Shown here in pieces: positions 4,766 to 51,971 of a DNA stretch of 64,000 nt. The position numbers were made by a program, and so were the translations under genes. Each line of letters opens with the position of its first letter. Positions within the stretch are counted from its first letter, which is position 1. The notes beneath the pieces were generated by a model. That model saw only the letters and a list, made by a program, of their open reading frames with translations, made no database searches and was not told where the DNA came from. Origin of the DNA: Secundilactobacillus odoratitofui DSM 19909 = JCM 15043. Lineage in GTDB: Bacteria; Bacillota; Bacilli; Lactobacillales; Lactobacillaceae. The stretch spans positions 1 to 64,000 of the forward strand of contig NZ_AZEE01000004.1 in assembly GCF_001434895.1 (NCBI RefSeq). Direction: 5' to 3'.

Positions 4766-6379
4766 TTATTTCCAGTAGGCGTAACGATAATTACCGTTCG
4801 TAATAAGTGTGTAGTTCAATCCGCCAACTTCCTTGCTAACAAGGTATGCTTTTGATTGTTGGTAAAGCGGTACTAAACCGGCATTTTCAGTCACATACTT
4901 ATCAGCTTTTAACATCAAATTGTAACGTTCTTGCGTCGTGTACTTGGCGGTATCATTGATTTCTTTGATCATGTTTTGATACGTCTTGTCGTTCCACTTG
5001 GTGAAGTTAACTGGGTTACTCCCATCAGCCACTTGTAAGAAGTCCAATGGATCATGCCAGTTGGTTGTCCAACCATCTAGGTCAATGTCGTAATCGAGCT
5101 TTGCACCCAGTGAAATTTGTTGGGCCAGTGGTACTGACTTAAGGTCAATGGTTAAACCTGGCATATACTTTTGAGCTTGTTGCTGCAAGTATTGAGCCAC
5201 GTGCTTTTCAACATCCGTATCGGCCGTAATCATCGTCAAAGTTGCCTTCTTGATACCTAATTCTTTCTTGGCCTTGTTCCATAAGCTAGTTGCTTGTTTA
5301 GGGTTATAACTGGTTAACTGACCTGCTTCTTTCGTAAAGTCTTCACCGGTCTTAGGGTTTGACAAGTCACCCTTTGGAATCAGACTTTCAGCGGGTTGAG
5401 AACCATCTTGTAAGACAGAAGTGGTCAATTGTTTACGGTTAACAACGTTGTTGAAGGCTAAACGAACGTTCTTGTTATGCGTAATTTTATGTTTATCGTT
5501 AAATTCAAGGAAACGCATGGACCCGTTTGGTGTCTTAACTAATTGCTTGTTGTTCTCGTTAGCCTTAACGTAAGTCCCAGTAATTTGAGTTTCTTGCAAC
5601 TTACCTGACTTGAATAGGCTCTGTGCAGTACCTGGATCCTTCACAACTGATACTTTGATTTTATTGATCTTAACGTCATTTTTACCCCAGTAATGCGTGT
5701 TTTTCTTGTAATACCAAGTATCTGACGTACTGTTCCAATCACTCAAAGCGTATGGACCGTTGGTGACAGTTGTTTTAGAAGAAGTCCCAAACTTGTTGCC
5801 GTACTTCTTAAACGCTGCGGTGTTGATTGGATAGGCTTTGGCGGCCAAAATGTCACCAAACCATGGTTGTGGCTTAGAAAGCGTAATTTGAACCTTGGTT
5901 TTACTTAAAGCCTTGATACCAAAGGCACTTGGCTTCACCTTACCCGCCTGAACGGCAGCGAAGTTCTTCACGTATTTCAAATCACTGGCAACTTGTGATT
6001 TTGAAGTTGGGTCAACTTGATGATCAAATGAGGTCACAAAATCTTGCGCAGTAACTTGTTGACCGTTGGCCCACTTTGCATTCTTCTTCAGGTTGATGGT
6101 GTAAACCGTCCCGTTATTCGTTGGTTTAACGACCTTTTCAGCCACCCCGGCAACAACCTTCCCATTGTTGTCGTAACGGTATAACCCTTCCATCGTTTGT
6201 GCAATCATAGCGGAACTGTTCACGTCACCAGAGATGGCTGGGTCAGCCGTTGCTGGATTAGATTGTAACGTCACGTTTAAGACCTTGTTTTTGTTTGCTG
6301 AAGATGATGAACTTGACTGGCCACAGCCAGCTAATAGTAGGGCTAACACAACCCCTGCGATCCCAATTGATTTTTTCAT
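4766..6379 (-). CDS. oppA: Oligopeptide ABC transporter substrate-binding lipoprotein (OppA family)
   Basis: The 537-residue protein is a family 5 extracellular solute-binding protein, the cell-surface receptor that hands peptides to an Opp/Dpp permease. It has a lipoprotein signal peptide with lipobox LLAGC (Cys about residue 19) and a Ser-rich linker. Typical OppA signatures follow, such as NPATADPAI, QTMEGLYRYD, NGPYALSDW and the C-terminal VPLYQQSKAYLV. I chose ATG 6379 because a strong GGGAGGAAAC site precedes it; an upstream in-frame ATG at 6421 lies at the end of the leader and has no good site. No permease or ATPase gene is nearby, so it is an orphan receptor that probably shares a transporter elsewhere. 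A T-box leader precedes it, so expression should respond to one uncharged tRNA. Confidence 0.92.
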   Translation of the reverse strand: MKKSIGIAGVVLALLLAGCGQSSSSSSANKNKVLNVTLQSNPATADPAISGDVNSSAMIAQTMEGLYRYDNNGKVVAGVAEKVVKPTNNGTVYTINLKKNAKWANGQQVTAQDFVTSFDHQVDPTSKSQVASDLKYVKNFAAVQAGKVKPSAFGIKALSKTKVQITLSKPQPWFGDILAAKAYPINTAAFKKYGNKFGTSSKTTVTNGPYALSDWNSTSDTWYYKKNTHYWGKNDVKINKIKVSVVKDPGTAQSLFKSGKLQETQITGTYVKANENNKQLVKTPNGSMRFLEFNDKHKITHNKNVRLAFNNVVNRKQLTTSVLQDGSQPAESLIPKGDLSNPKTGEDFTKEAGQLTSYNPKQATSLWNKAKKELGIKKATLTMITADTDVEKHVAQYLQQQAQKYMPGLTIDLKSVPLAQQISLGAKLDYDIDLDGWTTNWHDPLDFLQVADGSNPVNFTKWNDKTYQNMIKEINDTAKYTTQERYNLMLKADKYVTENAGLVPLYQQSKAYLVSKEVGGLNYTLITNGNYRYAYWK

Positions 6380-6443
6380 ACACGTTTCCTCCCAAATGAA
6401 TAATATACAATATTTATACAATTTCGATAATTATTTTGAATAC

Positions 6444-6697
6444 AAAAAGGCACCCTCGATTCGACTGAATCAAGGGCGCCATCCGCGCGTTACCACCTAG
6501 TTATCAAAGACTATTCACATAGCCTTCCTCATTGAGTTATTTAACTCAAGCAAGTTAACGGTTGCCAGCCGGTGCTTTAACGTCTCCAAGACCCGCTTCC
6601 CCATGATCACCGATCCGGCTTGCACTATCCCGGACTTGCTAGGCGTGTGATCAATAAGTACTCATCTTTTCGTTGACTTTTAATATTCAAGATTACG
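6444..6697 (-). promoter_or_regulatory. T-box riboswitch leader of oppA
   Basis: Read on the minus strand, the leader has a stem I region with an AGTA element, and the T-box core AGGTGGTAACGCG (complement of 6486-6500). It ends in an intrinsic terminator: GGCGCCCTTGAT pairs with ATCGAGGGTGCC, followed by T5 (6444-6480). This is the standard layout in which an uncharged tRNA pairs with the T-box and stops terminator folding. I could not assign the specifier codon: the specifier loop lies near 6590-6605 and allows more than one reading. Control of a peptide receptor by one amino acid fits peptide uptake as an amino-acid source. Confidence 0.88.
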
Positions 6698-6703
6698 ATT
6701 ATT

Positions 6704-6732
6704 AATGTAATCCTTATTCATTTGGTTGTCAA
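6704..6732 (-). promoter_or_regulatory. Promoter of the T-box/oppA transcript
   Basis: On the minus strand a consensus -35 TTGACA (6732-6727) is followed after exactly 17 bases by TACATT (6709-6704). Transcription would start near 6697, just ahead of the T-box stem I. Confidence 0.75.
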
Positions 6733-6862
6733 GCAGAATTCAAACATAATTTAGTTTTCAATTATTTCAAAACAGATGCCTTTACCAATCCTTTACTTTT
6801 CCTTTACCAACTCACACGAAAAAGTTCACATTTTTATCACAATTTCTGGCTATTATGTAAAC

Positions 6863-7016
6863 ATAGTCAATTAAGCAATTGATTGACTATCCCCTTAAAT
6901 AGATAACGATATTCCAATGTTTTTCCTCCCCCTAAACATTAGAGAACAACCTAAACTTAAACGTTATCCAACTCCCCCTCGCTCAACCGTACCCCCTAAT
7001 ACGGTTGAGCTTTTTT
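6863..7016 (+). ncRNA. Candidate small RNA with four C-rich unpaired motifs
   Basis: A -10-like TATTAT (6851-6856; the -35 is weak) is followed by about 155 bases that fold well, contain no credible reading frame and end in a strong terminator. The folding seen is: hairpin ATAGTCAAT/ATTGACTAT (6863-6890); outer stem GATAACG/CGTTATC (6902-6908 with 6962-6968) enclosing hairpin AATGTTT/AAACATT (6916-6940); and terminator stem GCTCAACCGT/ACGGTTGAGC plus T6 (6981-7016). C-runs sit in loops or linkers: ATCCCCTT, CCTCCCCCT in the loop at 6925-6933, ACTCCCCCTC at 6971-6980, and ACCCCCT in the terminator loop. CCUCC is complementary to Shine-Dalgarno sequences. This is the design of Firmicutes trans-acting sRNAs with C-rich loops. 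No RNA family could be assigned. Confidence 0.6.
6981..7016 (+). terminator. Rho-independent terminator (end of candidate sRNA)
   Basis: A perfect 10-bp stem, GCTCAACCGT/ACGGTTGAGC, has the loop ACCCCCTAAT and is followed by T6. No protein gene lies upstream on this strand within the window, so it must end a non-coding transcript. Confidence 0.85.
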
Positions 7017-7082
7017 GTATTATCATTAAAAAGACGGTCAAATCAACATACTGATGATTTGACCGCTCTTTGGCTTGTTCAA

Positions 7083-7403
7083 TTAAGCTTTAAAAATTTC
7101 TTTTGCCAGGCCAAACGCTGACCAGGCTTTTGGCCACCCGGTATAAAAGGCCAATTGGGTAATTAATTCGACCATCTCATCCTTTGTCACACCGTTTTGC
7201 TTCGCCATTTTCATATGGGCCTCAAGTTGTGGAAACAACCCCTGTGCCATCAACGCGGAACAGGTGATCAAGCTACGATCACGTGCTGACATCTGCGCTT
7301 CTCGCGACCAAACTTCACCAAACAATACGTCATCATTTAATTCAGCAAACTTTGGCGCAAATTCACCAAGGGCGTCACGCCCGGCCGTTTGTTTTTTAAC
7401 CAT
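7083..7403 (-). CDS. Carboxymuconolactone decarboxylase (AhpD-like) family protein
   Basis: The 106-residue protein shows the CMD-domain pattern FGEVWSREAQMSARDRSLITCSALMA, then LEAHMKMAKQNGVTKDEMVELITQLAFYTGWP. One Cys is present but there is no CxxC pair, so AhpD-type disulfide reductase activity is unlikely and the reaction is unknown. ATG 7403 is chosen over the longer frame because it starts one base after the cupin stop (7405) and has a GAAGG site inside the end of that gene. It is the last gene of a cluster with LysR, flavodoxin, SDR and cupin genes, which suggests a redox or quinone/aromatic stress function. This last point is inference from context. Confidence 0.85.
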   Translation of the reverse strand: MVKKQTAGRDALGEFAPKFAELNDDVLFGEVWSREAQMSARDRSLITCSALMAQGLFPQLEAHMKMAKQNGVTKDEMVELITQLAFYTGWPKAWSAFGLAKEIFKA

Positions 7404-45236: not shown

Positions 45237-48200
45237 CTATTCGTCACCTTTACGACGACGTTTTGCCAAACCTAGAATACCTAAAGCGCTTAGGAGACTC
45301 AAGCCCATAACGGCCATTGAGTTCTCATTAGCATCATTAGTTTGTGGCAATTTAGCCTTCGAGGTATTGGCATCAGTATGGTATTTGGCCATCCGAGTTG
45401 TTGCAGCGACGGCTTTAGCCTCTGATGAGGTGGTGGTGGTTTGTGCATTTACACGAGTGCCATCCGTTTCAGTACTGGTTGTTTCTGGTGCAACTGTTGT
45501 ACCAGGTTCAGTCGTAGTTGTCTCACCAGGTTTAGGGGTAGTCGTTGTGGTGCCCGTTGACCCCGTGGTGTTATCGCCAGAAGTTGACGTCGACGTGCCA
45601 CCGGTGGTTGAATCACCACTGGTTTCACCAGTAGTACCGCCCGTGGTATTGTCACCGGTAGTAGTACCACTGTTACCGTTATTACCACCGCCATTATCAG
45701 TTGATACAACTGTGTACTCGATGGTAGCAGTACTATTAGCTAATTGATCAGCACTTGTTGGTGCTGGGTTAGCGGCTGCAATACCGGTGCTAGTTGTGGT
45801 GTAGCCAGTGATAGTTGGTGCGGTAACTGCAGCATAACCATCTTGAGGAGTTGCAACCGTTTCACCAGTAACATCATCCGTAGAAACGTTCCAAGTAATC
45901 GTCTGGACAGTTGCCGGTTTCAAACTAGTTTGAGTGCCAGCAACTAGATAATTAATGGTCCGGGTAGTTGTTGCAGTGCTGTGTGTAATGTTGTGGGTCA
46001 AGTGGACCGTGATGGCTGAACCTGCTTCCGTAAACGTGTAGGCCACAGAACTTGCTTGATCAGCTGCCAACGTGTAACCCGTTGGTACTTTAACCGTGTA
46101 GGTCCCAGTTTCACCAATCGTACCAGTCAAGGTTTCAGCAGCACTGGCAATGGTCTTACCAGTAACATCATCGACGTAGCTAACTGGAATGCTCAATGCG
46201 TCGGCCGTGTAGTAGATAGCGGCACTGGTATCACTTGGTGCAGTTGTTGAAGCATCTGGGTTAACTGCAGCAACACTGGTAGTCGTTGGGGTGTAACCCG
46301 TAATAGAGGCAGCTTTGGTTGCGTTATAACCACCTTGTGGGGTGTAGATACTGTCACCAGTAACTGCATCGGTTGAAACGTTCCAAGTAAGTGATTGGGT
46401 CGTTGCTGGCGCTAAGGCAGTGGTCGTCCCTTTGAGGTAGTAGTTAACCGTTTGAGTCGTCGTAACCGTACTATGGTTAACAGCATGGGCAAGTTGAACG
46501 TTGATGACGTTCTTAGCAGCATCGGCGCTAAAGGTGTACGCAATGTCAGCAGCTTGGCCTTTAGCAAGAACGTAGCCTGCTGGCACGATGACGGTGATGC
46601 TACCTGATTCACCAGTCGCACCGTGAAGGGTAACTGAGGCGTTATTAACTTTTTCACTGTTAGTTGCATCGACATAGTTGATTGTGATGCTTTGCGGATC
46701 GGCAGTGTAGTAAATCGTCGCACTTGTGTCAGTTGGTGCGCTCGTTGATGCATCAGGTGTAACTGCTGCAACACTTGCGGTAGTTGGCGTGTAGCCAGCT
46801 ACTGTAGCTGCAGTTGTCGCTGCATAGGCACCCTGTGGCGTGTAGACAGTCTGGTTAGTCACTTTGTCAGTAGCCGCTTTCCATGAAATGGTCTGCGTCG
46901 TGGCAGGTGCTAAAGCAGTTGTAGTGCCAGTCAGTTGGTAATTGACCGTTTGAGTTGTATCCACGGTGCTGTAGCTAATCGCGTGTGTTAAGTGAACGGT
47001 AATCACGTTCTGAGCGGCGTCAGCGCTGAAGGTATAGTCGACGGTTGAAGGTTGACCCGTCGCCAGTTCGTAATTCGTTGGGACCTTGACCGTGTAAGTA
47101 CCGGTTTGATCTGTTGTACCGGTCAGAGTCGTGTTAGAACTGGCAATCGAATCACCGGTGACATCATCCACGTAGTTGACCTTAATAGTCTGATCGTTAG
47201 CCGTATAGTTCACCGTTAACGATTGTGGTGTTGGTGCAGTGGTTGAAGTGGCAAATGAGAAGCTGGACTCGTCTGGATCAGCTGTGTAACCAGCTACAGG
47301 TGGAATCGTTGCTGCCTCGCTGGTCGAAGCTGGTGTGTACGTGGTGATGCCAGTGACGTCATCAGTACTTGTCGTCCAGTTCATGGTCTGAGTATTATCG
47401 GTTAATGCCTTATCAGCTGGTAAGCCAGTGTAAGTCACTGTGTAAGTTGAACTAGCTGTACCAGCAGTTAGTGCGTGTACCAAGTGAATGGTGATTGTAT
47501 CATTGTCATTGGCAGTAAACGTGTGCGTACCAGTAGCACTTTGACCGTTTGCTAAAGCATAGTTCGTAGGAGCTTTAGCTTGCCAGTTAGCGATGCTGCC
47601 AGTAACGCCAGAAAGCGTTTGGGTATCGCCGACTTGTGCACCACCATTATCATCGTCGACAAACTTCACATCAACTGTCTGGGCATCAGCAACATAGTTT
47701 ACCGTGGCTGTTTGACTACCCGGATACGTCGTTGATGACGGTAGATTGAAGGAAGTTGACTCTTCTGTAGGAGTGTAACCGGCTACGGTAGGAGTATTAA
47801 CAACTGAGTAGTCAGGAACGGTTGCGTAAGTGGTGATCCCAGTTACTTCATCGGTCGAAGCCGTCCAAGTCACATCTTGTGAGACAGAGTAAACGGTATT
47901 GCCGTTGGCATCAACGGTTGAACTAGTCCAAGTGCCAGTTGATGATGGTGTCGGTGTTGGTGTCACGCCAGCAGGTAAGCCGGTATAGTTCACGGTGTTA
48001 GGAATTGTGTATTCTTCAGTTGAAACGGCGTGATCTAGGTAAACCGTGTAGACCGGCGACGTACTATCAGTATCGCCGAAGGTCAGGTCATAGGTAGCTG
48101 GGGTGCCGGATTTCAAAGTGTAGCTAGTCGGTGCAGTAATAGCAACGGTTGTTGTATCACCAGGAGTGCCCTTCACCTTTTGAGTCAAGACGGTTGAGCC

Positions 48201-51200
48201 ATCCGTGCTATCAACGTAAGCAATGGTATCAACTACTTTGCCATCAGTTAATTCATAAGTGATCGTATCGCCATCGAAGTAATAAGCAACGGTTTTGCCA
48301 AATGCAGCGGTGTCGTTCGGCATACCATCATAGTCACCGTGATCTGAGTTAAGAATTGAAACTTTGAGTGACCCATCAGCATTAGTGGCTAACCAGTACC
48401 CAGATGGAATTAGGTTGGTATCGGTGGCACTAAAGCCTGAGGCGCTGCTTGGATACGTTGACGCTGTTAAGGTATCAACGTTATCTTTGTAGGTCTTTTG
48501 CAAATCAGCTAATGAGATGTACTGATCATCGCCGTTGTCATCAACGTAGTGGAATTGCACGTTCACCGTTGAGGTCCCGGTGATAGCAATTGAAGCGGCT
48601 TTGTTGGTAACGGTTGGGGCTAGCCCATTAATATATAAAGCTGTTTGTAAGTAGCCGGTGTGGTTACCCTGAGCAGCAAAGTCTTTAGCCGTTCCGGAAA
48701 TATCGATCCGGCCAGTAGAATTACTAGTTGGTAAATTACCGATGCTGATGTAAACGGAACGAATAGTGCTCCAATCAGTTACTTGGTCTTCAGTAACGTA
48801 ATTACTTAAATCAGGAGTAGCTGTTGAATTGCTGGTATCGTACAGTTGGGTACTGTAGTAAACCGTACCAGACATGGTTGCACCATTATTACTTGAATTT
48901 GTGAAATTAGTTGGCAATGTAATTGGACCAGTCAATTCAAAATCATAAGTGGATCCTTGGCTGTCACCCACAGTTGGTAAATTGACGATGACACCCGTAT
49001 TGGTATCAGTTACGTCAGTTGAATTGGTGACATTTGTGTAAAAGTCCATCTGTGAGGTGCCAGAGACATCTGAAGTACCTGCAGAAACAGCATCGTTGTT
49101 TGTATTACCTTGTGCAAACGAAGAGTTTGTCGTGGTAGAAGAAGTTGAAACGGTAAACATTTGAGCATCAATATAGATTGCATTGGTGTCACCGTCAACC
49201 AGGGTCTTGTCTGTAGGTTTGTTGGCTTGGCCACCCTTGTCTGTTAGTGCTGTGGTTAAAGAGGTCATGTACAGAGATGCTTTATATTGGCCATTAACAG
49301 CATCAGGTAGAATATTTCCTAACGTTACTTTGTAGGTATTAGTTGGTTCATTCAGGTTGACATATTCTCCAGTCCCGGTGTAGTCGATCTTAACGCCAGT
49401 TTGACCAGTGTCAGTGGTGTAATACGAGATTTGAGCGCCTGCCGCAAGATCGGCTGCTGGAATGGTAACAGGATCAGTAGCTGCAATTGCATGTGACGCA
49501 GGTAGGACAAAATAAATAATTGGTTCATAGACGTAGTCGGTAGTTTGAGTAAAATCGCCCTGGGAGATTGACATTACAGAACCTGCCCCCGTGCCAGGAG
49601 TTGTTTTATCCGCGTTCCATGCGTATAGGGCAGTTTTTGCTACACCAGCTGATACGGTTTGAACGTTAGTTGATGTAATTGTTTCGTTACCTTCACCTGG
49701 GAAACTAATTTCTGATTTAAAGGTCAATTCATCGTTATTTTTAACGGAAGTACCATCATCGTAGGTTGTTGAGAGTGTACCTATCGTACTGATGACGAGT
49801 TTACCCGCACCAGCGGCGATGTAATTGGGAGTGAGCACGATTTGCCGAATTGGTGATGGATTATCCGGTGAGTTGATTTTGCCACCCGCGGCAACCGTGC
49901 CAGTTGAGGTTGTACCATCCAGATAAGTAACTACGTATCCATAACTGGTGGTACCAGTGGTGTAGTTGAGCAATACGTCAGTGGTGTTGTTGACTAGCGT
50001 AGAACTAGTGGTTGGCACGTAAAAGCCAGTTGCATTAATACCACTTGGAATCGTCAAGGTAATGACACCGTCAGTGACGTTTGAGGCAGAGTTTAATGTA
50101 AAGGCCACCTGATTAATGTATTCTGGGTCATCAGAAGTGATGCTATCAAGTGTAATGGCTGATCCACTTTTACTGTTACCAGTACCTGTTACAGTGGCAG
50201 AGGTAGTTGTTGTATCAGCGGCGGCAATGGTTTCTGTCCAAACGGAGTTATCCGAAGTAGTTGCGGTGTAAGTGCCAGCGGCATTGATTTGGACGATTGA
50301 TGCACCACTAGCTGCGGTTACAGTTTGAGCAGTATCGGTTTGAGTAATATCGTAAGAACCCGCTAAGTAATATGGGTATAACAGTGAACCAGTTGAACCC
50401 TTACCTGCTGGTACTGTAATGATAATATCTGCGCCAGTACCGGCCTGAGTAATAGTAGTGCCATCGTTAAAGTCATTCAAACTGGCCGTCAGATTACTGT
50501 TTAAGGTAAATGAGGCCGGCGTTGGAATAGTAATTACTGTACCACCAGCATTTAAACTTGAAGCAACACGAGTTGAGGCATAGTTGTTTCCATAGTTGTT
50601 CACATCATTAATTGAAAAAGTATAGATGTAATCAGTGTCAGCATTAACAGCCGGAGTCGTACTAGTGCTTGGTGTGAATCGAGTTGGTGATGTTGGAATC
50701 GTAACGGATGGTTCGTAGTACTGCGTTAAAGCAACACTTGCATCATCCTTACCATTTAGGGTTGTTGTGATGGCCCGAGTAACGGTTTGACCAGCTTGGT
50801 CGGCGGAAACAGCAGTACTACTAATATTACCAGCTTGGCTGATCGTCATTGCATTACTAAAATTGGTTCCGGGTGTTGAGGTGAAAGTATAGGTTACTGT
50901 AGTGGTACCATCAGCGTTCTGTGTAACTGTTTCGGTACCATATTGATTGGAGCCCATGTCGGTAATGCCACTGTTATTAGGTTCATACTTTAAGGTATCT
51001 AAGTCAGTTGGAATATTGACCGTCACAATATCACCGGCCACGATATTAGAGAATGAAACAGTGATAGTATATTTTGTCGTTGAATTAGTCGAGTTTGTCC
51101 CTGCACCCAACGTCGTCGTTGGCACCGAAATTGAAATCTTACCACTCGTAGCCGTTGCTAAGGTTGCGTTAACTGCTTGAGCTTGGCCTGTGAGGGCATA

Positions 51201-51971
51201 CTGAGTTGCAGCCGCCGTTTTAGCATCTGCTAATTCGGCCGCTGTTGCATCTGTCAAAGTGACGGTATTAATAGTTGCAGCAGTTGGTGTGGTGACCGTT
51301 GTTGTCGTAGGGGTTGTTGCAGTTGCTTGAGTTGCATCTGTTGCAGCCGCCTGTGGTGTCGTTGAACTGCTGGTAATGGTCGGTGCACTATTAGTACTGC
51401 TGTCACTGGTTGTTGATTGTGCTTGTGCAGTACTGGTGTCGGCCGTTTTAGTGTTACTTGAAGTGCTTTTGCTTGGTTCACTAGCCGTGGTTTTAGTTGC
51501 CTGACTAGTGCTTGTGGTTGCAGTTTTAGCGACGTCAGTTTTAGAAGCATCGGTTGTAGCCGTGTCGTTAGTAGTCGTGTCAGAACTTGCCTGACTTTGA
51601 CTAGCTGCTTGACTGCTACTGTCAGAGCTCGTATTGCTCGTTGAAGTGTCAGTACTTGATTGGCTGGTTGCTGAATCAGCACTATCCGAAGTTGCAGTCG
51701 ATGCGCTGTCTGTGTTCGACGTATCAGTCGCCGTCGTGCTTGAACTGGTAGCACTAGAACTGTTGCTTGTGCTGTCATTTGCCACTTGAGTGGTCGTGAC
51801 AGTGCTATCGGTTGCGGCGAAAGTGGTTAAGTTGCCACTGAAAAAGATTGCAGCGCCAAATGTTAAACTAGCGATACTAGCAAACACCCAGTGTTTACCA
51901 ACCTTATATGCCTTATAGTGTGTAGAAAGGTTGTTTTGCGCAACCTTCTGATGGTTATTTTTTCCTACCAT
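45237..51971 (-). CDS. Giant mucin-binding LPXTG adhesin
   Basis: A complete 2244-residue wall-anchored protein. Order: KxYKxGKxW signal peptide (KAYKVGKHW at about 20-28, cleavage near TTFA/ATD); a Ser/Thr/Ala/Asp-rich region (about 54-230); beta-rich adhesin domains (about 230-1400); four MucBP/Mub-B2-type repeats of about 165 residues starting near 1434, 1593, 1761 and 1928; a Gly/Thr/Ser-rich stalk; and a sortase signal LPQTN at 2208-2212 with hydrophobic helix and RRRK tail. By family it binds mucus at the cell surface. The ribosome site is GAGGGGG. It is a paralogue of the adhesin at the left edge. The low-complexity regions and repeats make it prone to length change. Confidence 0.95.
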   Translation of the reverse strand: MVGKNNHQKVAQNNLSTHYKAYKVGKHWVFASIASLTFGAAIFFSGNLTTFAATDSTVTTTQVANDSTSNSSSATSSSTTATDTSNTDSASTATSDSADSATSQSSTDTSTSNTSSDSSSQAASQSQASSDTTTNDTATTDASKTDVAKTATTSTSQATKTTASEPSKSTSSNTKTADTSTAQAQSTTSDSSTNSAPTITSSSTTPQAAATDATQATATTPTTTTVTTPTAATINTVTLTDATAAELADAKTAAATQYALTGQAQAVNATLATATSGKISISVPTTTLGAGTNSTNSTTKYTITVSFSNIVAGDIVTVNIPTDLDTLKYEPNNSGITDMGSNQYGTETVTQNADGTTTVTYTFTSTPGTNFSNAMTISQAGNISSTAVSADQAGQTVTRAITTTLNGKDDASVALTQYYEPSVTIPTSPTRFTPSTSTTPAVNADTDYIYTFSINDVNNYGNNYASTRVASSLNAGGTVITIPTPASFTLNSNLTASLNDFNDGTTITQAGTGADIIITVPAGKGSTGSLLYPYYLAGSYDITQTDTAQTVTAASGASIVQINAAGTYTATTSDNSVWTETIAAADTTTTSATVTGTGNSKSGSAITLDSITSDDPEYINQVAFTLNSASNVTDGVITLTIPSGINATGFYVPTTSSTLVNNTTDVLLNYTTGTTSYGYVVTYLDGTTSTGTVAAGGKINSPDNPSPIRQIVLTPNYIAAGAGKLVISTIGTLSTTYDDGTSVKNNDELTFKSEISFPGEGNETITSTNVQTVSAGVAKTALYAWNADKTTPGTGAGSVMSISQGDFTQTTDYVYEPIIYFVLPASHAIAATDPVTIPAADLAAGAQISYYTTDTGQTGVKIDYTGTGEYVNLNEPTNTYKVTLGNILPDAVNGQYKASLYMTSLTTALTDKGGQANKPTDKTLVDGDTNAIYIDAQMFTVSTSSTTTNSSFAQGNTNNDAVSAGTSDVSGTSQMDFYTNVTNSTDVTDTNTGVIVNLPTVGDSQGSTYDFELTGPITLPTNFTNSSNNGATMSGTVYYSTQLYDTSNSTATPDLSNYVTEDQVTDWSTIRSVYISIGNLPTSNSTGRIDISGTAKDFAAQGNHTGYLQTALYINGLAPTVTNKAASIAITGTSTVNVQFHYVDDNGDDQYISLADLQKTYKDNVDTLTASTYPSSASGFSATDTNLIPSGYWLATNADGSLKVSILNSDHGDYDGMPNDTAAFGKTVAYYFDGDTITYELTDGKVVDTIAYVDSTDGSTVLTQKVKGTPGDTTTVAITAPTSYTLKSGTPATYDLTFGDTDSTSPVYTVYLDHAVSTEEYTIPNTVNYTGLPAGVTPTPTPSSTGTWTSSTVDANGNTVYSVSQDVTWTASTDEVTGITTYATVPDYSVVNTPTVAGYTPTEESTSFNLPSSTTYPGSQTATVNYVADAQTVDVKFVDDDNGGAQVGDTQTLSGVTGSIANWQAKAPTNYALANGQSATGTHTFTANDNDTITIHLVHALTAGTASSTYTVTYTGLPADKALTDNTQTMNWTTSTDDVTGITTYTPASTSEAATIPPVAGYTADPDESSFSFATSTTAPTPQSLTVNYTANDQTIKVNYVDDVTGDSIASSNTTLTGTTDQTGTYTVKVPTNYELATGQPSTVDYTFSADAAQNVITVHLTHAISYSTVDTTQTVNYQLTGTTTALAPATTQTISWKAATDKVTNQTVYTPQGAYAATTAATVAGYTPTTASVAAVTPDASTSAPTDTSATIYYTADPQSITINYVDATNSEKVNNASVTLHGATGESGSITVIVPAGYVLAKGQAADIAYTFSADAAKNVINVQLAHAVNHSTVTTTQTVNYYLKGTTTALAPATTQSLTWNVSTDAVTGDSIYTPQGGYNATKAASITGYTPTTTSVAAVNPDASTTAPSDTSAAIYYTADALSIPVSYVDDVTGKTIASAAETLTGTIGETGTYTVKVPTGYTLAADQASSVAYTFTEAGSAITVHLTHNITHSTATTTRTINYLVAGTQTSLKPATVQTITWNVSTDDVTGETVATPQDGYAAVTAPTITGYTTTSTGIAAANPAPTSADQLANSTATIEYTVVSTDNGGGNNGNSGTTTGDNTTGGTTGETSGDSTTGGTSTSTSGDNTTGSTGTTTTTPKPGETTTTEPGTTVAPETTSTETDGTRVNAQTTTTSSEAKAVAATTRMAKYHTDANTSKAKLPQTNDANENSMAVMGLSLLSALGILGLAKRRRKGDE

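Follow-up and report, generated by a model that had tools for sequence, protein, structure and literature searches.

A putative C-rich small RNA of Secundilactobacillus odoratitofui with anti-Shine-Dalgarno loops and a promoter repeat that recurs across Lactobacillaceae and, as a variant, before htrA

The two-component systems that drive several C-rich small RNAs (sRNAs) in streptococci and in Listeria share regulons with htrA, which is a target of CiaR and, in Listeria, of LisR. In Streptococcus, the csRNAs of the CiaRH regulon are present as several sRNAs per genome, and their promoters have a direct repeat with 5-bp spacing, located about 10 bp before the -10 element, according to the sections available to us of PMC3091779. 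In the same source, a direct repeat with 5-bp spacing before the -10 is the mode of CiaR, a regulator of the OmpR family (PMC3091779). LhrC and other sRNAs of low-GC bacteria have UCCC motifs in loops and linkers, which contact mRNAs at the Shine-Dalgarno (SD) region, as far as the accessible part of PMC4132741 describes them. In Lactobacillaceae, the catalogue of L. casei BL23 comprises 307 sRNAs, of which 86 are intergenic and several were confirmed by Northern blotting; nine have similar sequences elsewhere in the family (PMC8220740, accessible part).

Here we describe a C-rich sRNA candidate in a stretch of 64,000 nucleotides (hereafter, the window) from Secundilactobacillus odoratitofui DSM 19909 (contig NZ_AZEE01000004.1, positions 1 to 64,000). 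An initial annotation of this DNA had marked positions 6838-7016 of the plus strand. The features assigned in the present study are as follows.

Between oppA (T-box leader on the minus strand) and a convergent gene of the CMD family, also on the minus strand: the whole plus-strand element
6469-6682, minus strand: T-box leader ahead of the oppA-like gene (score of 67.7 bits; Rfam gathering score, 93)
6781-6808, plus strand: upstream array TTTACC-N5-TTTACT-N5-TTTACC (half-sites at 6781, 6792 and 6803; about -82, -71 and -60)
6825-6841, plus strand: core direct repeat TTCACA-N5-ATCACA, a presumed response-regulator box (half-sites at about -38 and -27)
6851-6856, plus strand: -10 element TATTAT, 9 nt after the repeat
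6863-7016, plus strand: predicted class A sRNA of about 154 nt (inferred start; the T-run of the terminator as its end)
6863-6890, plus strand: 5' hairpin H1, beginning at the predicted start (helix 1, 85.4% of alignment cells paired)
6891-6894, plus strand: first C-run, CCCC, single-stranded
6902-6968, plus strand: arm closed by GATAACG (6902-6908) with CGTTATC (6962-6968) (helix 2, 91.7% of cells paired, nearly invariant)
6916-6922 with 6934-6940, plus strand: inner hairpin with the loop 6923-6933, TTCCTCCCCCT (minimum free energy structure of the window RNA only)
6974-6978, plus strand: C-run of the linker, within ACTCCCCCTC, the second candidate anti-SD site
6981-7016, plus strand: intrinsic terminator with an 11-pair stem, the loop CCCCCTAA (6992-6999) containing the fourth C-run, and a T6 tail
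45237-51971, minus strand: gene of 2244 codons for a surface protein with a KxYKxGKxW signal, mucin-binding domains and an LPXTG anchor (start region, AGAGGGGGAUAUUCACAUG)

The stretch 6838-7016 folds with -38.9 kcal/mol, compared with -16.9 +/- 3.0 for 200 dinucleotide shuffles (z = -7.38), none of which was as good; thus, it is well-folded, as had been stated. The extent given by the initial annotation holds for 6863-7016 as the sRNA, but 6838-6862 belongs to the promoter. The 5' hairpin opens with A6863, which we take as the likely start because of the conserved spacing from the -10 and the conserved CATAG, and the predicted length is therefore about 154 nt. In the minimum free energy structure, the 5' hairpin is followed by the arm closed by GATAACG and CGTTATC with its inner hairpin and then by the terminator, whose 11-pair hairpin (6981-7010) and following T6 agree with the strong terminator noted before. 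The four C-runs, at 6891 (CCCC), 6928, 6974 and 6992 (CCCCC each), had been placed in loops or linkers, and all four are indeed unpaired in this structure. Among 20,000 mononucleotide shuffles, 20 contained four runs of at least four C, and C is over-represented at unpaired positions (30 of 74, vs 13 of 80 paired ones; p = 0.001). A scan of overlapping 154-nt segments, 6385 per strand, found at least three such runs in 16 on the plus strand (including this locus) and in none on the minus strand. The loop of the inner hairpin is predicted to be the main anti-SD site; this hairpin was taken from the minimum free energy structure of the window RNA only.

BLAST found homologues in 12 of the 15 Secundilactobacillus genomes, and a thirteenth class A member, in G010, was found via the promoter box, so that 13 of the 15 genomes have one; in G006 and G008, neither BLAST nor the box search found a member. 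Twelve of the 13 sequences were aligned, and that of G005, whose middle part is unalignable, was left out. Standard pairs account for 89.6% of the cells in the 12 members, vs 85.3% in shuffles. Ten pairs are changed on both sides, vs 4.7 in shuffles (1 of 500 shuffles was as high), and 17 cells are changed on both sides, vs 6.3 (0 of 500); the covariation score was reached by none of the 500 shuffles. Further pair types were not in excess over shuffles (18 vs 17.5), and structures slid along the alignment as a control fell to 26-43% paired. The terminator holds most of the double changes (9 of 11 pairs). Being nearly invariant, the long arm yields little covariation evidence, and the two outermost pairs of H1 are lost in most relatives. 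The C-run columns are invariant in 13 of 19 cases, vs 11 of 55 other unpaired columns; thus, the C-runs are the most conserved unpaired part of the RNA. The stems are conserved and covary among the relatives, one of the two points on which the initial annotation had proposed that its reading should stand or fall.

An open reading frame for 45 amino acids (6917-7054) overlaps the sRNA stretch. No counterpart of this frame is kept among the class A relatives examined, which agrees with the non-coding nature assigned before. By domain matches, the oppA product belongs to the SBP_bac_5 family and the downstream neighbour to the CMD family. The T-box leader of oppA scores below the gathering threshold and is not listed by a default Rfam scan. 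The earlier remark that the sRNA is divergent from a T-box-controlled peptide receptor gene is right as to the T-box, but the neighbourhood is incidental: oppA, the CMD-family gene and a cupin-like gene stand beside the sRNA at one of 12 loci, that of the window itself (flanks of 0.45-1.5 kb; the G010 locus was outside this test). oppA was also rejected as a dedicated cis-linked target, as an unconserved neighbour that ranks 9th among the 54 predicted genes of the window in duplex strength.

No ordinary -35 element was found at the sRNA, and promoter prediction listed no plus-strand promoter there. The initial annotation had regarded the promoter as its weak point, with only the -10 convincing. 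The lack of an ordinary -35 stands, but it is not a weakness, since the place of the -35 is taken by a direct repeat with half-sites TTCACA (6825) and ATCACA (6836) 11 bp apart. The promoter pattern is TTCACA-N5-WTCACA-N9-TATTAT, and the repeat is presumably a site of the type bound by OmpR-family response regulators. The half-sites of the TTTAC array lie further upstream in the same 11-bp phase as the core repeat. A search of the window with the array pattern gave this sole match, without mismatches; with two mismatches allowed, the pattern is also found in 38 of 100 shuffles, and the weight of the array therefore rests on its conservation. It is present in class A promoters only, in phase and with variants, and is absent from those of classes B and C.

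A pattern search of the same genome (G000) found four loci in which the box is followed by a C-rich RNA and a terminator-like hairpin, and a fifth box in another context.

The window RNA, C4:95332, C4:392801 and C4:467758: box with C-rich sRNA
C4:300651 (L087 2151): box ahead of a gene whose exported-looking product has no Pfam match

The box also stands upstream of a related exported-looking protein in G010 (L084 1051), and on these sequences the gene behind the box in both genomes is likely a further member of the regulon. Our sorting of the promoters in the 15 genomes gave 13 of class A, 25 of class B and 11 of class C, with class B represented in every genome. Class B RNAs typically have CAUUUUACUCCUCCAAAGUAAAAU (24 of 25 by reading; L147 differs), and their hairpin keeps the extended element CAUUU(UU)ACUCCUCC, in DNA the motif CATTT(TT)ACTCCTCC. 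The CAUUUUACUCCUCCAAAGUAAAAU loop and the 5' arm could pair with an SD sequence and its AUG together. Versions of the class B element with altered stems recur in other genera. The class B alignment has 31 rows, two of which (Loigolactobacillus rennini and g33) are too short by the terminator rule, and no covariation is claimed for it. A tandem of two class C sRNA genes, their promoters being similar, is found in L139 (G002:C72:100-700); the first gene contains a short run of N.

Matches to the exact box number 65, in 47 of 151 genomes of the family (17 of 40 genera), compared with two for the reversed control; the inspection of downstream sequences covered 61 of the 65. Of the 50 boxes examined outside the genus, 39 lead into at least two anti-SD runs, and several of the remaining 11 lead into protein genes. 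The background, as the share of stretches with at least two anti-SD runs, is 15% in the window, 24% in the same 34 loci of the scan that follows and 26% in 30 loci of the family. A scan of genomes of named species for the box with CATAG gave 45 stretches. The 34 from Lactobacillaceae belong to Secundilactobacillus, Lactiplantibacillus, Loigolactobacillus, Lacticaseibacillus, Ligilactobacillus, one uncultured Lactobacillus and one Limosilactobacillus; 33 have at least two anti-SD runs within 190 nt downstream, and in the odd one out, that of Limosilactobacillus, the box leads into a protein gene. Among the 11 other stretches, seven of which are from Clostridia, four have at least two anti-SD runs. 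The exact box in Clostridia was seen in Mobilitalea sibirica (L120 1125-1166, minus strand) and Clostridiaceae M8S5 (L098); in one case it is followed by a short, RNA-like sequence that has two C-runs and ends in what resembles a terminator hairpin, and in two cases by genes for exported-looking proteins. These matches may reflect either chance or a wider distribution of the box. At gathering scores, Rfam has no match in the window, in agreement with the earlier remark that no existing family was recognised, and in 17 loci of relatives it gave only two tRNAs and one RatA, all apart from the sRNAs. The RatA match (an RNA antitoxin; L094 4163-4250, minus strand, 62.4 bits) lies about 310 nt downstream of the Loigolactobacillus rennini sRNA box. 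Judging from the sequences compared, the window RNA is one member of a multi-gene sRNA set that spans Lactobacillaceae.

A variant of the box precedes htrA in 14 of the 15 genomes of the genus (G005 was outside this check). In 13 genomes it is of the TTCAAA type and lies upstream of htrA in 13 of 13; these 13 of the 14 stretches were chosen or fetched via the box, and the count therefore shows where box matches fall and is not a blind test. The fourteenth stretch, that of the S. odoratitofui genome itself, was located by its position near walRK and has a weaker box, GTCAAA-N5-TTCATA-N9-TAAAAT. The HtrA protein of G010 has trypsin-like and PDZ domains. The box at htrA links the sRNAs to export and to quality control of the envelope. 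Another repeat, TTCATA-N5-TTCACA, is conserved in the region that separates an arcA-like gene from the gene of a LacI-type regulator (L083 1571 and L085 2038; gene names by reading). It is probably an operator of the arginine deiminase operon and was set aside as probably unrelated to the sRNA box.

A PieR-like response regulator is present in 46 of 47 genomes with the box and in 55 of 104 others (p = 4e-9), and PhoP in 45 of 47 and 49 of 104 (p = 1.3e-9). Each association persists within carriers of the other regulator (p = 1.7e-5 and 3.1e-6, respectively), and all these p values are too small, since the genomes share ancestry and are not independent. The box was found in 44 of 75 genomes with both proteins, in two of 26 with the PieR-like protein only, in one of 19 with PhoP only and in none of 31 with neither. 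We regard the PieR-like protein of the OmpR family encoded at G000:C14:83297-84037 as the most likely regulator on present sequence comparisons; its best NCBIfam model is PieR, with 287 bits, below the cut-off of 450. It is preferred because G086 and G112 keep the box and the sRNA in the absence of PhoP, because a box-like repeat stands before its own gene in six of 30 loci, vs one of 50 for other regulator genes, and because a regulon containing htrA suits a secretion-stress system. Of 33 regulators listed, the 30 with a locus were examined. The six loci with the repeat belong to genera g3 (five) and g25 (one), none being from Secundilactobacillus, and the gene has no box-like repeat within 320 bases in the other 24 of 30 loci; an additional g25 locus (L254) also has the repeat. 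The PieR-like protein is present in one of eight box-less genomes, and in G148, which has the box, it was not found at E 1e-70. A LisR-type protein (L047) occurs in nine of nine sRNA-bearing and six of eight box-less genomes, and WalR and RR-49 in eight and seven of the eight box-less genomes, respectively. LisR-type proteins and WalR are close to universal among the genomes examined, so that presence and absence hardly test them; the same applies to RR-49, and a LisR-type protein may still be the regulator.

The same kind of sRNA might instead have its box read by PhoP under phosphate starvation and belong to the Pho regulon. The Bacillus PhoP box is TT(A/C/T)A(C/T)A with 5-bp spacing, and the half-site found here fits this consensus. 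Furthermore, half-sites occupy six positions in the class A promoter at intervals of 11 bp, one being degenerate, a TTTACA-N5-TTTACA array lies in the same genome between a regulator gene and a pstS-like gene (by reading; L052), and PhoP accompanies nearly all of the boxes, as given above. However, besides the two genomes that keep box and sRNA without PhoP, all five genomes of genus g24 have PhoP and no exact box, the TTTAC array is missing from classes B and C, and, to our knowledge, PhoP would not be expected to be linked to htrA; we consider this assignment unlikely. Far less probable still is a true csRNA regulon, in which the box would be read by the CiaR-like regulator encoded at G000:C7:61474-62160. 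This was our first hypothesis, from the recognition helix VVEVYMSNLRKKI, which is near-identical to VVEVYVSKVRKKL of CiaR, and the design is as in the CiaR regulon, so far as the consulted part of PMC3091779 presents it. It was dropped, since a CiaR-like protein is present in 23 of 47 box genomes, vs 59 of 104 others (p = 0.38), the other 24 of the 47 lacking one at E 1e-60. G007 has the sRNAs without a CiaR-like protein, and in genus g38 all five genomes have boxes and no such protein at E 1e-60. In addition, the half-site is TTCACA instead of TTTAAG: the box before the -10 is TTCACA-N5-WTCACA and not the CiaR box NTTAAG-N5-TTTAAG.

Returning to the PieR-like regulator, we propose the following scheme. 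Envelope or secretion stress would activate the two-component response regulator; this would bind ahead of the -10, at the 11-bp direct repeat, and jointly switch on the HtrA protease and the C-rich sRNAs, four in this genome. In the sRNA, CCUCC or CCCCC would be displayed by the loops of one hairpin and of the terminator and by two linkers. These runs would pair with the G-rich ribosome-binding sites of selected mRNAs, which probably encode exported or surface proteins, so that translation would be blocked. The structure of the RNA and its covariation, the shared promoter box, the multi-copy set, the link to htrA and the spread in the family are matters of sequence; we infer that the RNA is expressed, which regulator and which signal induce it, and that it pairs with targets and affects them. 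The locus has what is expected of a C-rich sRNA of Firmicutes as far as sequence can tell, namely a promoter and terminator of its own, conserved unpaired C-runs and no conserved open reading frame. When the 54 predicted genes of the window were ranked by duplex strength, the start region of the 2244-codon gene came out strongest (-19.0 kcal/mol; AGAGGGGGAUA against the linker UCCCCCUC). With an exported surface protein as its predicted product, this gene is of the sort that the model would target. Because any strong SD sequence scores well in a ranking within one window, the match is no more than a lead.

The intergenic position alone might suggest a cis-acting leader, a spurious fold or an untranscribed element. 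Yet promoter, hairpins and terminator are kept together at loci with different neighbours, the next gene downstream is on the opposite strand and paralogues exist elsewhere in the genome, and we give this reading hardly any credence. A transcript that holds a C-rich-binding protein, or free ribosomes by mimicking the anti-SD tail of 16S rRNA, with no specific mRNA pairing, would agree with the fourfold repetition of the C-runs and the lower conservation of other unpaired sequence; it is improbable, as the class B element CAUUU(UU)ACUCCUCC could cover the AUG as well, as if made for mRNA start regions. The trans-acting RNA with anti-SD loops suggested by the initial annotation is thus supported as the best reading by the conserved unpaired C-runs, the opposite orientation of the downstream gene and the paralogues in the same genome. 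Very probably, this is a genuine small RNA that stops the translation of selected messages. That it is a stand-alone trans-acting sRNA under a stress-activated response regulator, made together with HtrA and blocking translation, seems likely to us on the same sequences. More speculatively, the PieR-like system might make HtrA together with fast-diversifying anti-SD sRNAs that silence the mRNAs of exported proteins, and the Pho-type operator array of the window RNA might add the phosphate state to envelope stress; this version is possible but doubtful.

If this bolder version is right, it describes a secretion-stress regulon of Lactobacillaceae that has so far not been described. In the open-access literature we recognised nothing on this box or sRNA set, most subscription papers being outside the scope. 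Few sRNAs with a described regulator were found for food and probiotic bacteria, and the present analysis gives a list of sRNA genes and promoter boxes for them. In the BL23 catalogue, sRNAs of Lactobacillaceae are reported, but a C-rich class, its box or its regulator is not described in the part of PMC8220740 available to us. Homologues of class B may already stand among its unnamed transcripts (PMC8220740, same part). The Listeria PieRS system shares the theme of secretion stress, and PieR is the best NCBIfam model of our candidate regulator; on the other hand, the words htrA and sRNA are absent from the main text of PMC12234432 as available to us.

The LhrC1-5 RNAs of Listeria, controlled by LisRK, are likewise multi-copy and dependent on a two-component system, with UCCC in two loops and a linker (PMC4132741, accessible part), and the window RNA also has UCCC motifs in its loops and linker. 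However, the LisR-responsive element is at about -53 to -75 in the accessible part of that source (PMC4132741), whereas the core repeat here is at -38/-27. A LisR-type protein also occurs in most box-less genomes, as given above, and a cmscan of 6300-7200, up to E 10, gave no match to LhrC. With the csRNAs, the present set shares several sRNAs per genome, a direct repeat with 5-bp spacing before the -10, anti-SD sequences and a terminator, but the half-site is TTCACA here and TTTAAG for CiaR (PMC3091779, sections available to us). Class A differs in having four C-runs. Of the unpaired sequences against the SD and the start codon that are typical of csRNAs, class A has the anti-SD part, and class B has possibly an adjoining anti-AUG. 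Because of the lack of an Rfam match, the different box and the CiaR-like protein that does not co-occur, we propose that these sRNAs work like the streptococcal csRNAs and Listeria LhrC and are members of neither. Lactobacilli, with a different box and an apparently different regulator, would then have arrived at a repeated solution: when export fails, produce the protease and stop new cargo at the ribosome.
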